DNA from: Sphingorhabdus sp. M41
Lineage (GTDB): Bacteria; Pseudomonadota; Alphaproteobacteria; Sphingomonadales; Sphingomonadaceae
DNA length: 64,000 nt
Assembly: GCF_001586275.1 (NCBI RefSeq)
Contig: NZ_CP014545.1
Span: 1,142,501 to 1,206,500, forward strand
Reading direction: 5' to 3'
The position numbers and the translations under genes are program-made. How positions within the stretch are numbered: the stretch's first letter is position 1; each line of letters opens with the position of its first letter. Below are positions 11,940 through 47,676 of the stretch, piece after piece. The notes below the pieces were generated by a model that was given only the letters and a program-made list of their open reading frames with translations, searched no databases and was not told the origin of the DNA.

Positions 11940-13829
11940 ATGGCCACCGCATTGAAGCAGGAAGAACCGAATAGTCCCAATAGCGACGGCGCAGAAAATG
12001 TTGTCGTTCGTTTCGCCGGAGATAGCGGCGACGGGATGCAGCTGACCGGAGGGCAGTTCACTCTGTCGACGGCGCTGGCTGGTAGTGATCTTGCGACCTT
12101 CCCCGACTTCCCTGCTGAAATCCGGGCACCGCAGGGCACCTTGTTCGGTGTGTCCGCTTTCCAGATCAATTTCGGCAGTCGCGCGATCGAAACCGCTGGC
12201 GACCAGCCGGATGTGCTGATCGCCATGAACCCGGCGGCTCTGAAGACCAACGTCGATGCCCTGCGCGCAGGCGGTCTGATCATCGCTGACGCTGGCGAGT
12301 TCGGAAAACGGAATCTCGACAAAGCGAAATATGAGAATAATCCGCTGGAAGACGGGTCGCTGGCGAAATGGCAGTTGCTCAAGCTGGATATTTCCGCGCT
12401 GACACTCGAAGCGGTGAAGCCATTCGGGCTGGGCAACAAGGAAGCGCTGCGCTGCAAGAATATGTGGACGCTGGGCCTCGCGCTGTGGATGTTCGAACGC
12501 GACCGCCAGCCGATTGTCGACTGGCTGAAGGGCAAGTTTGCGAAATTGCCGGATGTCGCGGAAGCCAATATCGCGGCGCTCAACGCTGGCCATGCCTATG
12601 GCGAGACGGCGGAACTGTCGGGTGACGGTCTTGGCAACGGCCATCTGACCTCGCGGACGGTCGGCGCTGCTCCCTCGGCACCGGGTAAATATAGGACAGT
12701 GACCGGCGCAGAAGCGCTGTCGCTCGGTCTGGTCGCCGGTGCGCAGCTGGCTGGCCTGCCGATGTTCTTCGGCGGCTATCCGATCACGCCAGCCTCGGCG
12801 ATCCTGCACCATTTGTCGCGGCTGAAGGAATTCGGCGTGACGACCTTCCAGGCGGAAGACGAGATTGCGGCGATATCGGCGGCCATCGGCGCGAGCTATG
12901 CCGGGAAACTCGGTATCACGTCCTCATCTGGCCCTGGTATTGCGCTGAAAGGCGAGGCGATGGGGCTGGCGATCATGACCGAGCTTCCCTTGGTGATTGT
13001 CAATTCACAGCGCGGCGGCCCTTCGACCGGTCTTCCGACCAAGACCGAGCAATCGGATCTCTATCAGGCTGTCTACGGCCGCAACGGCGATGCGCCGATG
13101 CCGGTCATTGCCGCGCGCTCGCCGAGCGATGCGTTTGAATGCGCGATCGAGGCGGTGCGGATTGCGGTGCAATATATGACGCCCGTGATGCTTCTGACCG
13201 ACGGTTATATTGCCAATGCGGCAGAGCCCTGGAAGATTCCGGATGTTGCCGGACTCGAGCCATTTCCGACCAGTTTCCAGGAAACGATGCCGGTAGATGG
13301 CTTGAAACCTTATGCCCGCGACGAGAAGCTGGCGCGGCCCTGGATCAAGCCGGGTACGCCGGGATTGATGCACCGTATTGGCGGCATCGAAAAGGGCATT
13401 GATACCGGACATATCGATTATGGTGCGGCCAACCATCAGAAAATGACTGAAATCCGCCGCGACAAGGTGCTCGGCGTTGCCGACAGCATTCCCGATCAGG
13501 ACGTCGCGCTCGGCAATAGCAGCGGCAAGCTGGCGGTTGTCGGCTGGGGTTCGACCTTCGGGCCGATCCATCAGGCGGTGCGCCGGGCTGTCGAAGCGGG
13601 CAAGGATGTGGCCCATATCCACATCCGGAATATCTGGCCGATGCCGAAAAATCTCGGTGACCTGTTGAAAAGCTATGACAGGATCATCGTTCCGGAAATG
13701 AATACCGGGCAGCTGAAAACCGTGTTGCGCGATCAATATCTGGTCGATGCGAAACCGGTGAACAAGGTTTCCGGCCAGCCCTTTACCATTGCCGAAATTG
13801 AAGCGGCGATTGAGGAGAATCTGTCATGA
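11940..13829 (+). CDS. korA: 2-oxoglutarate:ferredoxin oxidoreductase-type subunit alpha (gamma-alpha fusion)
   Basis: A 629-residue protein. The N-terminal about 200 residues are the gamma-type domain (VVRFAGDSGDGMQLTGGQF). The rest is the alpha domain of 2-oxoacid:acceptor oxidoreductases, with GGYPITPASAILHHLS near residue 278 and SSGPGIALKGEAMGLAI. With KorB it should oxidatively decarboxylate a 2-oxoacid, probably 2-oxoglutarate, to acyl-CoA while reducing ferredoxin. The stop overlaps the korB start in an ATGA. The ribosome binding site is weak (GGAAAA). Substrate assignment rests on the two-subunit Kor architecture and is not certain. Confidence 0.88.
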   Translation: MATALKQEEPNSPNSDGAENVVVRFAGDSGDGMQLTGGQFTLSTALAGSDLATFPDFPAEIRAPQGTLFGVSAFQINFGSRAIETAGDQPDVLIAMNPAALKTNVDALRAGGLIIADAGEFGKRNLDKAKYENNPLEDGSLAKWQLLKLDISALTLEAVKPFGLGNKEALRCKNMWTLGLALWMFERDRQPIVDWLKGKFAKLPDVAEANIAALNAGHAYGETAELSGDGLGNGHLTSRTVGAAPSAPGKYRTVTGAEALSLGLVAGAQLAGLPMFFGGYPITPASAILHHLSRLKEFGVTTFQAEDEIAAISAAIGASYAGKLGITSSSGPGIALKGEAMGLAIMTELPLVIVNSQRGGPSTGLPTKTEQSDLYQAVYGRNGDAPMPVIAARSPSDAFECAIEAVRIAVQYMTPVMLLTDGYIANAAEPWKIPDVAGLEPFPTSFQETMPVDGLKPYARDEKLARPWIKPGTPGLMHRIGGIEKGIDTGHIDYGAANHQKMTEIRRDKVLGVADSIPDQDVALGNSSGKLAVVGWGSTFGPIHQAVRRAVEAGKDVAHIHIRNIWPMPKNLGDLLKSYDRIIVPEMNTGQLKTVLRDQYLVDAKPVNKVSGQPFTIAEIEAAIEENLS

Positions 13830-14857
13830 ACGAGATGACAAAAATCACGACGACGCTCAAAGACTGGGAAACGGATCAGGAAGTACGCTGGTGCCCCGGT
13901 TGCGGCGATTACGCCATTTTGAAGGCCGTACAGCGGACCATGCCCGATCTGGGTGCCGATCCGTCCAAAACGGTCTTTGTCAGCGGTATCGGCTGCTCCT
14001 CGCGCTTTCCTTATTATATGGAGACCTACGGTTTCCATACGATCCATGGTCGTGCGCCCGCGGTGGCGACCGGCGTGAAGCTGGCCAATCCGGAGCTGGA
14101 CGTGTGGATCATCACCGGTGACGGCGACGCGCTGTCGATCGGCGGCAATCACACGATGCATTTGCTGCGTCGCAATCTCGATTGCCAGGTGATGCTGTTC
14201 AACAACGAGATTTACGGCCTGACCAAGGGCCAATATTCGCCGACCAGCCGGCAGGGCACGCAAAGCCCCTCGACGCCATATGGGTCGGTCGACCGGCCTG
14301 CTTCGCCCTGTGCCTTTGCTCTGGGTGCCGGAGCGCGGTTCGTTGCGCGGGGTATCGATATCCACAAGGGCCTGCCCGACGTTCTCAAGGCGGCCCATGC
14401 CCACAAAGGCACGTCGTTCATCGAGATTTTCCAGAATTGCATCGTCTATAACAAGGATGTGTTCGAGGAATTTGCGGCGAAGAAAACCGCCGCCGACACC
14501 CAGCTGCATCTGATGAACGGCGAACCAATGCTGTTTTCCAAGGGCACCAAGGGTATAACGCTCAATCGCAAAACATTGCAGCTGGAAGTTGTCGATGTGG
14601 TCGATGGTGACTGGCAGGCGGCTGACGTGATCGTCCATGATGTCACCAACCGTTCGGTGGCGCATATGCTGATCGAAATGCAGTTTGGCGAATTCCCGAT
14701 GGCCTTGGGCGTGCTCTATGATGATCCGCGGCCGACGTTTGAGGCGGCTGTAGTCGCGCAGAATGAAGCGGCAGCGGCTGGCAAGGCGCCGGATTTGCAG
14801 GCTTTGTTGAGCAAGGGGCAGACCTGGACGGTGGCAGAGGGTGGGCCGGAACTGTAA
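13826..14857 (+). CDS. korB: 2-oxoglutarate:ferredoxin oxidoreductase-type subunit beta
   Basis: A 343-residue thiamine-diphosphate subunit. Cys23 and Cys26 (WCPGCGDY), Cys57 (GIGCSSRFPYY) and Cys205 (FQNC) fit the four ligands of the single [4Fe-4S] cluster of two-subunit enzymes. The TPP/Mg motif is GDGDALSIGGNH (99-109) with Asn126/Asn127. No extra ferredoxin domain is present. It is translationally coupled to korA by a 4-base overlap. The GxxExxY cassette begins ten bases after its stop, so read-through transcription would enter the cassette. Confidence 0.9.
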   Translation: MNEMTKITTTLKDWETDQEVRWCPGCGDYAILKAVQRTMPDLGADPSKTVFVSGIGCSSRFPYYMETYGFHTIHGRAPAVATGVKLANPELDVWIITGDGDALSIGGNHTMHLLRRNLDCQVMLFNNEIYGLTKGQYSPTSRQGTQSPSTPYGSVDRPASPCAFALGAGARFVARGIDIHKGLPDVLKAAHAHKGTSFIEIFQNCIVYNKDVFEEFAAKKTAADTQLHLMNGEPMLFSKGTKGITLNRKTLQLEVVDVVDGDWQAADVIVHDVTNRSVAHMLIEMQFGEFPMALGVLYDDPRPTFEAAVVAQNEAAAAGKAPDLQALLSKGQTWTVAEGGPEL

Positions 14858-14867
14858 AGATTTTTGG

Positions 14868-14895
14868 CTCGCACGAAGACACGAAGGCACTAAGA
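14868..14895 (+). repeat. Left inverted-repeat arm of the GxxExxY cassette
   Basis: The arm is CTCG followed by three 8-base units CACGAAGA, CACGAAGG and CACTAAGA. It pairs with the arm at 15304-15331 over 25 of 28 positions. Confidence 0.85.
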
Positions 14896-14902
14896 TGAGA
14901 CT

Positions 14903-15292
14903 GTGCAAGGTCTTGAAGAAATCGCCAGAATCTCCGTGGATTGCGGGTTTCACTTGCACAGGGATATTGGGCCGGGACTGCTCGAATCCGTCTATGAAGT
15001 TTTGCTTTTCGAAAGCCTGAAGGACAAGGGGCATTCTGTCGAAAGACAGAAGATCATTCCTATTACGTTCAAGGGCCGTGTTTTGGACGAGGCCTTTCGC
15101 GCGGACCTCATCGTCGAAAGGCGACTGCTGATAGAGTTGAAGTCTACCGAACGGCACTCGCCTGTTCATGCAAAGCAACTATTAACCTATTTGCGACTGA
15201 TGGATTTGCCATTGGGTTTCCTGATGAATTTTGGCGCAGCCACTTTCAAAGAAGGCGTCAAACGTCTGGCAAATAACTATTTCCGAGGCTAG
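14903..15292 (+). CDS. GxxExxY family protein (putative PD-(D/E)XK nuclease-like)
   Basis: A 129-residue protein with the family signature GPGLLESVYE near residues 23-32 (Gly-x-x-Glu-x-x-Tyr) and, about 40 residues later, FRADLIVERRLLIELKS, which has the D...E-x-K spacing of a PD-(D/E)XK nuclease fold. Function is unknown for the family. The start is GTG just inside the left repeat; an in-frame TAA at 14891 lies before it, so no longer form is possible, and TTG 14912 is an alternative. The gene is about 52% G+C over 180 bases counted by eye, less than the 68% of a neighbouring DUF457 line. Confidence 0.8.
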   Translation: MQGLEEIARISVDCGFHLHRDIGPGLLESVYEVLLFESLKDKGHSVERQKIIPITFKGRVLDEAFRADLIVERRLLIELKSTERHSPVHAKQLLTYLRLMDLPLGFLMNFGAATFKEGVKRLANNYFRG

Positions 15293-15303
15293 GCAATGCC
15301 AGT

Positions 15304-15331
15304 TCTTTGTGCCTTCGTGGCTTTGTGCGAG
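15304..15331 (-). repeat. Right inverted-repeat arm of the GxxExxY cassette
   Basis: Read on the minus strand the arm is CTCG followed by CACAAAGC, CACGAAGG and CACAAAGA. It matches the left arm at 25 of 28 positions and begins 11 bases after the GxxExxY stop codon. Confidence 0.85.
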
Positions 15332-15338
15332 ATAAAAT

Positions 15339-16319
15339 TTGGATAATCTAACCCACAGCCTCGCCGGTGCCGTTCTCGGCCAGATGGGGCTCAAGAAAAA
15401 AACCGGTCTCGGCATGGCGACGCTGATCATCGCCGCCAATATTCCGGATATCGACGCGGTGGCGACCTTGCTCGGCGGGGTGCAGCATCTGGCGCTCCGG
15501 CGGGGGATCACGCACGGCCCGATCGCTATGCTGGTTCTGCCGCTGTTGCTGACCGGGATCATGATCTGGTTTGATCGCTGGCAGACCAAGCGAGGAAAGC
15601 GGCCGGCGGACCGGTTGCCGATCCACAAGGGCTGGCTGTTGGCGCTGGCCTATATCGGCTGTCTGAGCCATCCGGCGCTGGACTGGCTGAACAGCTATGG
15701 CATCCGCCTGCTCGAGCCCTTTTCTTCGCAGTGGTTTTATGGCGACAGCATCTTCATCATCGATATCTGGATCTGGGCGGCGTTGATCGCCGGCTTGTGG
15801 GTGTCGCGGCGGCGGGAGAAGAAGGGTTTGAGAAATTGGCAGCGACCGGCCTGGACCAGCTTTGCTGCGGTCTGTGCCTATATTTTTGCCAATGGGCTGA
15901 TTACCGGGCAGGCCGAAGCCGAGGCCAAGACAGTTCTCGACAGTAAAGCTTCAGCGGTTGCGCCCGATGATTCACGGGACACGGTTGTCGCCAATCCGCT
16001 TCCGCTCCTATTCTGGAAGCGGGAAATTTTGTGGCGGAACGAATCCGCTTACGGGTCAGGAGCTTATGATCTTTTTGGTGGTTTGGTCCTCAATGAAAAA
16101 CAGAGAATCCCGGATTATGGGCGATTTCTGGTTCCGCAAATCGCGAGAGCCAGCGATGACGCTGCGGCTTTCCTGTTCTGGTCAAGAATGCCGATTGTAA
16201 AGGCGGTTGGCGCGCGCGTAACCGTGCGAGACCAGCGCTTCATGGATCCGCTGGTCGGGGACCGCTTCTCGGTTCGGGTGAATGTCCGAAAAGACAGGTT
16301 GGCACGACCGGCTCCCTGA
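15339..16319 (+). CDS. DUF457/YdjM-type membrane-bound metal-dependent hydrolase
   Basis: A 326-residue integral membrane protein. The first 160 residues carry the family pattern MDNLTHSLAGAVLGQMG, NIPDIDA, RGITHGP and SHPALDWLNSYG, whose His and Asp residues are the presumed metal ligands. About five transmembrane helices are visible (residues 65-85, 103-120, 135-155, 172-190), followed by a soluble C-terminal domain. The function is poorly known. The start is TTG right after an in-frame TAA (15333); MDNLTHS is the normal family N-terminus, so the position looks native. GAGA, part of the cassette end, is the only possible ribosome binding site. Confidence 0.8.
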   Translation: MDNLTHSLAGAVLGQMGLKKKTGLGMATLIIAANIPDIDAVATLLGGVQHLALRRGITHGPIAMLVLPLLLTGIMIWFDRWQTKRGKRPADRLPIHKGWLLALAYIGCLSHPALDWLNSYGIRLLEPFSSQWFYGDSIFIIDIWIWAALIAGLWVSRRREKKGLRNWQRPAWTSFAAVCAYIFANGLITGQAEAEAKTVLDSKASAVAPDDSRDTVVANPLPLLFWKREILWRNESAYGSGAYDLFGGLVLNEKQRIPDYGRFLVPQIARASDDAAAFLFWSRMPIVKAVGARVTVRDQRFMDPLVGDRFSVRVNVRKDRLARPAP

Positions 16320-39620: not shown

Positions 39621-39692
39621 CCGTTCGTGCTGAGCTTGTCGAAGCACGCTTCTCGGAGGAGAGATGTCCTTCGACAGGCTCAGGACGAACGG
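39621..39692. repeat. CCGTTCG palindromic repeat, copy 1
   Basis: Arms 39621-39644 and 39669-39692 are inverted and match at 22 of 24 positions, separated by 24 bases. A second copy, with almost the same left arm, lies at 47606-47676. It is an interspersed repeat of the kind common in sphingomonads; its function is unknown. Confidence 0.85.
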
Positions 39693-47605: not shown

Positions 47606-47676
47606 CCGTTCGTGCTGAGCTTGTCGAAGCAGGAACCCTTGCGGCAATCACCCTTCGACAGGCTCAGGGCGAACGG
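47606..47676. repeat. CCGTTCG palindromic repeat, copy 2
   Basis: Arms 47606-47629 and 47653-47676 are inverted and match at 21 of 24 positions. Its left arm is identical to that of the copy at 39621. It lies between trpF and trpB and covers almost the whole gap. Confidence 0.85.

Follow-up and report, generated by a model that had tools for sequence, protein, structure and literature searches.

The gene for a small Cas4-like nuclease of the GxxExxY family lies nearly always between mirror-image arrays of seven-letter words, an arrangement that recurs in nine or more bacterial phyla. Moreover, gene-less arrays are linked to the resident gene and are spelled like it. In the view towards which we lean, the GxxExxY nuclease and arrays of CRCNNAG words together make up a chromosomal repeat system of two parts, and the cassette described here, from Sphingorhabdus sp. 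M41, is the master copy that carries its gene.

The cassette between korB and the DUF457 gene

The stretch of DNA analysed (the window, 64,000 nucleotides) covers positions 1142501-1206500 of a single-contig genome of 3.34 Mb. Between korB and a DUF457 gene it contains a cassette of 464 bp, at 14868-15331, which is organised with its neighbours as follows:

13826..14857, forward strand: korB, beta subunit of 2-oxoacid:ferredoxin oxidoreductase; open reading frame with orthologues aligned in relatives; the upstream neighbour, which fixes the site
14862..14895, forward strand: left arm, outer TTTT..CTCG, then CACGAAG-A-CACGAAG-G-CACTAAG; from the sequence and the inverted-repeat alignment
14903..15292, forward strand: GxxExxY gene, 129 aa, GTG at 14903 to stop at 15292; from the open reading frame, profile matches and AlphaFold2 model
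15304..15337, reverse strand: right arm, inverted, inward CACAAAG-C-CACGAAG-G-CACAAAG, outer CTCG; from the sequence and the inverted-repeat alignment
15339..16319, forward strand: DUF457 membrane protein gene, the downstream neighbour; open reading frame, family name from the first-pass annotation

The name korB for the gene at 13826..14857 follows the first-pass annotation. The arms, CTCGCACGAAGACACGAAGGCACTAAGA and (reverse) CTCGCACAAAGCCACGAAGGCACAAAGA, are identical in inverted orientation at 25 of 28 positions, and the inverted repeat extends to 34 nt at 85% (14862-14895 and 15304-15337). The first-pass annotation had given the cassette the limits 14868-15331, arms of CACRAAGN type matching at 25 of 28 positions and a single GxxExxY gene inside, and was exact in all of this. 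Scored as in the cross-phylum arm test below, the arm pair reaches 19 (29 matches, 5 mismatches), and a score of at least 16 is attained by just 0.2% of control windows. The DUF457 gene has a TTG start immediately 3' of the arm and an ATG start in relatives without the cassette. The words CRCRAAGNCRCRAAG do not occur again in the 64-kb window at 0 or 1 mismatch.

The host genome carries a second GxxExxY cassette, with arms of CGCGAAG type, whose neighbours, in our own reading of the sequences, are presumably parE and a hotdog thioesterase gene. Another dispersed palindromic family is represented in the window by inverted pairs of GAGCYTGTCGAAG at 39632-39681 and 47617-47665; no such pair is expected by chance, and similar sequences gave many side matches across the host genus.

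Arms around GxxExxY genes across phyla

A scan of 84,980 species genomes returned 80 GxxExxY loci from many phyla, and 75 of them, including one viral contig, were tested for arms. With flanks measured from the conserved domain, an inverted repeat scoring at least 12 was present at 68 of the 75 loci, against 57 of 2443 control windows (2.3%) cut to the same geometry from these loci. Of the 68 left arms, 60 contain at least two CRCNNA[GT] words. The first-pass annotation had suggested that similar words flank GxxExxY genes in other phyla, and these counts bear this out. The loci belong to Pseudomonadota, Verrucomicrobiota, Lentisphaerota, Thermodesulfobacteriota and Bacteroidota, and also to Planctomycetota, Cyanobacteriota, Chloroflexota, KSB1 and SAR324.

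When the flanks were instead taken outside the ORF, arms were detected at 45 of the 75 loci. In many loci the 3' arm falls within the last part of the coding sequence, which specifies the C-terminus, and for this reason some sphingomonads appeared arm-less, an artefact that was corrected by measuring from the conserved domain. In a phylum sample the occurrence of the gene is patchy, 35 of 249 genomes carrying TIGR04256, and most of these loci have arms of like build in other spellings, for example CCGCAGAGTACGCAGAGTT or CCACAGATGCACACAGATGAACACAGAT. One Planctomycetales chromosome has seven GxxExxY paralogues, at least five of them with clear arms, in differing spellings. In a sample drawn around GxxExxY itself, 104 of 116 arm-bounded intervals near GxxExxY loci contain GxxExxY; inspection by eye revealed no transposase in the remaining 12. 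The gene is essentially chromosomal: phage records gave no GxxExxY match, and it was found on 7 of 72,556 plasmids and one viral contig.

Some other observations were made on these loci. Arms also bound apparent type I restriction specificity subunits (HsdS; L217:6863-8563 and L222:4291-5647), and some GxxExxY loci seem to lie within or beside HsdS-type loci. Near the parE-hotdog junction of one genome, two GxxExxY cassettes stand at most 1.9 kb apart on one contig (L088 and L111, G012:C2:106905-109176). A GxxExxY locus of sphingomonad type was found in a record titled Arthrobacter sp. TPD3018 (L244, QDFQ01000005.1), which may be mislabelled or contaminated.

The GxxExxY protein

The cassette protein is assigned to the family by two profiles, TIGR04256 (E 9.9e-35; 119.4 bits for a cut-off of 35 bits) and PF13366/PDDEXK_3 (E 2.6e-34; 118.5 bits for a cut-off of 22 bits). 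Its 129 residues include E28, D68, E78xK80 and Q92xxxY96; in a set of 60 sequences E28, D68, E78 and K80 never vary, and Q92 and Y96 are almost always kept. The set E, D, ExK and QxxxY is that used by RecB- and Cas4-type nucleases. The AlphaFold2 model of the protein (pLDDT 94.6) has as its nearest solved structure SSO0001 (4ic1; Foldseek E 2.3e-4), which we take to be a Cas4 protein. The two align over 101 residues with an rmsd of 4.5 and a Z of 9.3, slightly above the usual background of fold searches. The structure search also matched Hjc and restriction enzymes, and the alpha-beta core with D and ExK, which characterises the PD-(D/E)XK nuclease superfamily, is present in the model.

Beyond the fold, the features of Cas4 are missing, as the protein has one cysteine and no iron-sulphur cysteine set. 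PADLOC returned just weak matches to RT-associated PDDEXK and Cas4, no cas gene was recognised among the ORFs adjoining the cassette, and no clear sequence relative was found in the PDB (a single match, E 0.12). The nuclease active site is retained in nearly all GxxExxY members, and the protein is best read as a Cas4/RecB-like PD-(D/E)XK nuclease, with an enzyme activity predicted from model and residues. One member counts against our preferred reading: in G003 (L097) the catalytic D68 is lost by a change of Asp to Gly (FRAGLIV) in an otherwise intact gene.

Gene-less copies and their spelling

Further arm copies, for which the first-pass annotation had proposed a search, do occur in the host genome and in related ones, some enclosing the gene and others not. 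In the host genome, at least eight more arm pairs enclose a short core only, with no gene; one of them lies between what we take, from the sequences, to be ruvA and ruvB. The gene-less copies measure 50-80 bp and are scattered in the host genome and relatives. Within the host genus they occur in 16 of 32 genomes, with up to 19 pattern matches each, and a reversed-pattern control gave zero matches in the 32 genomes; as many as 50 copies were counted in G139. In the phylum sample, period-8 gene-less palindromes were present in 16 of 35 gene-carrying genomes but in 7 of 214 gene-free ones (p 9e-11), and this association persists both outside (p 0.0006) and inside (p 0.02) the dominant family. However, the seven gene-free genomes, three of them complete, retain 1-14 gene-less copies, which counts against our preferred reading.

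The spelling of the gene-less copies follows that of the resident cassette. Of 15 genus genomes with a cassette in the CRCRAAG spelling, 13 have solo copies spelled likewise, as do 2 of 16 others (p 5e-5), in a tally made by hand that leaves out G043, where the cassette runs into a contig edge. A second spelling, ACGCRAAG..GCGCNAAGATTTT, shows the reciprocal pattern, being found in all eight genomes whose gene has it and as one weak stray with 2 mismatches. Moreover, arms resemble the gene-less copies of their own genome more than those of others (p<0.0002 for 15 genomes; p=0.001 for 10 genera represented once each). The distances between arms and between proteins are correlated overall (rho 0.30), but no correlation is seen for pairs below 50% identity, and the spelling code is therefore not conserved at depth.

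History of the korB-DUF457 cassette

The korB-DUF457 cassette is an old resident and no recent arrival, because it occupies the same junction in five sphingomonad lineages, belongs to one protein clade and is under strong purifying selection. It is present at this junction in Sphingopyxis, Sphingorhabdus and one unclassified sphingomonad MAG, and in Sphingomonas canadensis a cassette adjoins korB. A location elsewhere in G041 and G044 was considered and rejected, both having the cassette at the korB-DUF457 junction. The korB-site proteins form one tree group, as do the parE-site proteins; the korB-site group also takes in one Parerythrobacter protein of unassigned location. The divergence of the cassette is comparable to that of its flanks, and the strong purifying selection on the gene is estimated from a median dN/dS of 0.13 at a dS of 0.74. 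These results go against the roving, mobile cassette supposed in the first-pass annotation. That annotation had held that a cassette at the same site in all relatives, with ordinary divergence and with no arm copies elsewhere, would refute mobility; site and divergence are as described there, whereas other arm copies do exist. It had also looked to empty korB-DUF457 junctions as support for mobility. Such junctions exist in relatives (G007, G009, G012 and G021), but on the korB tree they are most simply separate losses rather than gains. They contain no arms.

In G008 an internal deletion at the korB site has kept both arm ends around the deleted gene, and such decay is one way in which gene-less pairs arise. 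Synonymous distances are lower in the cassette than around it in three species pairs. G001-G002 has 0.08 in the cassette and 0.30-0.68 in four flanking genes, G000-G041 has 0.18 and 0.36-0.54, and G003-G011 has 0.21 and 0.39-0.53. In these pairs identity peaks between the arms, and the tracts do not always span both of them. Judged from these distances, cassette tracts are exchanged between species. In G011-G044 other genes nearby show exchange too; the cassette is thus not alone in exchanging alleles, which counts against our preferred reading.

Indirect signs of movement

The cassette has terminal inverted repeats, as insertion sequences and DNA transposons do, and the ends of the elements are sharp, with T at -3 in 53 of 62 and C at -2 in 60 of 62 (outer TC(G/A)). 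No target-site duplication is visible at the korB site or at about 18 Sphingopyxis copies, a comparison that includes no same-species empty site, and no clean recent insertion was caught among the sites compared between species; both count against our preferred reading. Empty-site comparison at the ruvA-ruvB and ALDH-ALS spacers was discarded, as these spacers have diverged too far for an insertion to be placed. The sole near-identical pair of filled and unfilled sites (site S in G000 and G004) is most plausibly explained by a deletion between the arm ends, not by an insertion. Near-identical gene-less families have been amplified in Sphingopyxis. The near-identical family of G298 reaches past the arms, and as its flanks are repeated too, its copies are weakened as proof of transposition and may belong to a larger repeat; flank-only copies of this family were not detected. 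At six Sphingopyxis loci (L361, L362, L363, L364, L366 and L369), two spellings are interleaved as A-B-A'-B' in a repeated compound element, much like the mosaics (BIMEs) that REPs form. That the arms move, possibly by transposition, is indirectly suggested by their dispersal, the sharpness of the element ends and the amplified Sphingopyxis families.

A proposed two-part repeat system and its alternatives

The constant features of the arms are the words and the sharp outer TC(G/A). It is hardly credible that the cassette acts at the RNA level in the manner of the 23S rRNA intervening sequences, with a transcript that folds on the arms and is processed. Folding is possible (z -3.7), as for any inverted repeat, but in 31 elements, a set of limited power, the variable arm positions of one element agree no more often than those of different elements with a common spelling (0.75 and 0.77), and Rfam gave no match to the cassette. 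In the same 31 elements, also with limited power, spacer bases match at 0.55 within and 0.46 between elements (p 0.06). Pairwise covariation of the arms was sought as support for an RNA stem and not found, which speaks against a base-paired stem and against the folding of the transcript entertained in the first-pass annotation. We favour, from these sequence comparisons, a word array that is recognised by a protein, with the product of the flanking gene as candidate. The GxxExxY protein is the obvious one because the arm spelling follows its gene.

The two-part system that we favour would consist of a small PD-(D/E)XK nuclease, closest to Cas4 in predicted fold and with the RecB-type E, D, ExK and QxxxY, and of arrays of about three 7-bp CRCNNAG words, in inverted pairs around the gene and in gene-less pairs elsewhere. 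We infer that the protein binds and cuts DNA and itself causes the dispersal of the arrays. It would bind the word array in its own spelling, probably with one array per subunit, such that an inverted pair forms a synapse, and would nick or cut the DNA close to where the arrays end. As the cut is repaired or replicated, the array pair could then be copied, at a low rate, to other sites, and cassette alleles could also be converted between relatives.

Alternatively, the arms may be operator and genome-organising sites, which GxxExxY would bind to regulate its own expression and, at the dispersed sites, to act in replication, supercoiling or at mRNA 3' ends, with copies spread by duplication, slippage and recombination. 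Long residence and strong purifying selection would fit a host function, no target-site duplication was seen at the sites compared, and the unit arrays resemble binding sites more than paired stems. We nevertheless consider this explanation unlikely, as it accounts neither for the sharp element ends and the scattering to dozens of unrelated places nor for the patchy occurrence of the gene and its retained nuclease active site. A homing-like selfish gene, which would cut at the array in alleles that are divergent or lack the gene, and would be copied in, with solo arrays mostly as deletion remnants, is rather improbable: the conversion-like identity peaks inside the cassette in several species pairs and the solo pair left in G008 agree with it, but the empty korB-DUF457 junctions offer no array to cut, solo copies far outnumber gene copies and lie at other sites, and the exchanged tracts sometimes miss one arm. 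We see even less reason to believe that some transposase encoded elsewhere acts on the arms and carries the cassette as a passenger. The constant layout of the terminal inverted repeats and the gene-less copies in gene-free genomes would suit such a passenger; against it stand the presence of GxxExxY in most arm-bounded intervals of a sample drawn around GxxExxY, with no transposase recognised in the others, and an arm spelling that tracks the resident gene, because of which mobilisation in trans is not the simplest reading.

Relation to known systems

The proposed two-part system is closest to REPIN-RAYT, in which short repeats in inverted pairs are dispersed over the chromosome, are tied to a nuclease gene that they flank and persist for long times (PMC8049555, PMC3733652). 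Layout, persistence and link to a gene are alike, since here too dispersed inverted pairs also flank the gene of an enzyme. However, the enzyme there is a Y1 tyrosine HUH transposase, whereas the sole gene between the arms here encodes a putative PD-(D/E)XK nuclease; the GTAG-tagged hairpin is replaced by an array of 7-bp words spaced at 8-11 bp. As the enzyme is unrelated, the GxxExxY system is not a member of REPIN-RAYT. Cas4/RecB-type nucleases give the best structural match and share E, D, ExK and QxxxY, but in contrast to Cas4 the GxxExxY protein has 129 aa and no iron-sulphur cysteines, and its gene is chromosomal, packaged by arms and without a cas neighbour in view. PMC4046053 mentions a Cas4-like nuclease alongside casposons. 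These have inverted terminal repeats as well, but the GxxExxY cassette is without Cas1, polymerase or a detectable target-site duplication. Multicopy dispersed intergenic families, some of them palindromic, appear in passages of PMC2996986 on Geobacter genomes, where no link to a GxxExxY gene is made. The cassette also differs from the 23S rRNA intervening sequence (S23) in being intergenic between protein genes and in that its protein is not a four-helix bundle. The PF13366 and TIGR04256 models cover the protein alone, leaving the arms and dispersed copies outside, and in the open-access literature searched by arm words and family name no description of either was found.

This looks like an undescribed repeat-plus-enzyme system, with the layout of REPINs and an unrelated nuclease in place of their own transposase. 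The GxxExxY family, large and without an assigned function, gains a directly testable candidate substrate in the flanking word array. More tentatively, and with somewhat less than even confidence, we propose a separate and ancient class of repeat systems that spans nine or more phyla. In these systems a minimal Cas4-like nuclease would spread arrays in its own spelling independently of transposases, phages and plasmids, and many 'CACGAAG / CACAGAG / CACAGAT' intergenic repeats of environmental genomes would be their products. If true, this would explain a very common and so far unexplained class of intergenic repeats, and a REPIN-like lifestyle would have arisen twice, the second time around an unrelated enzyme of Cas4-related fold.
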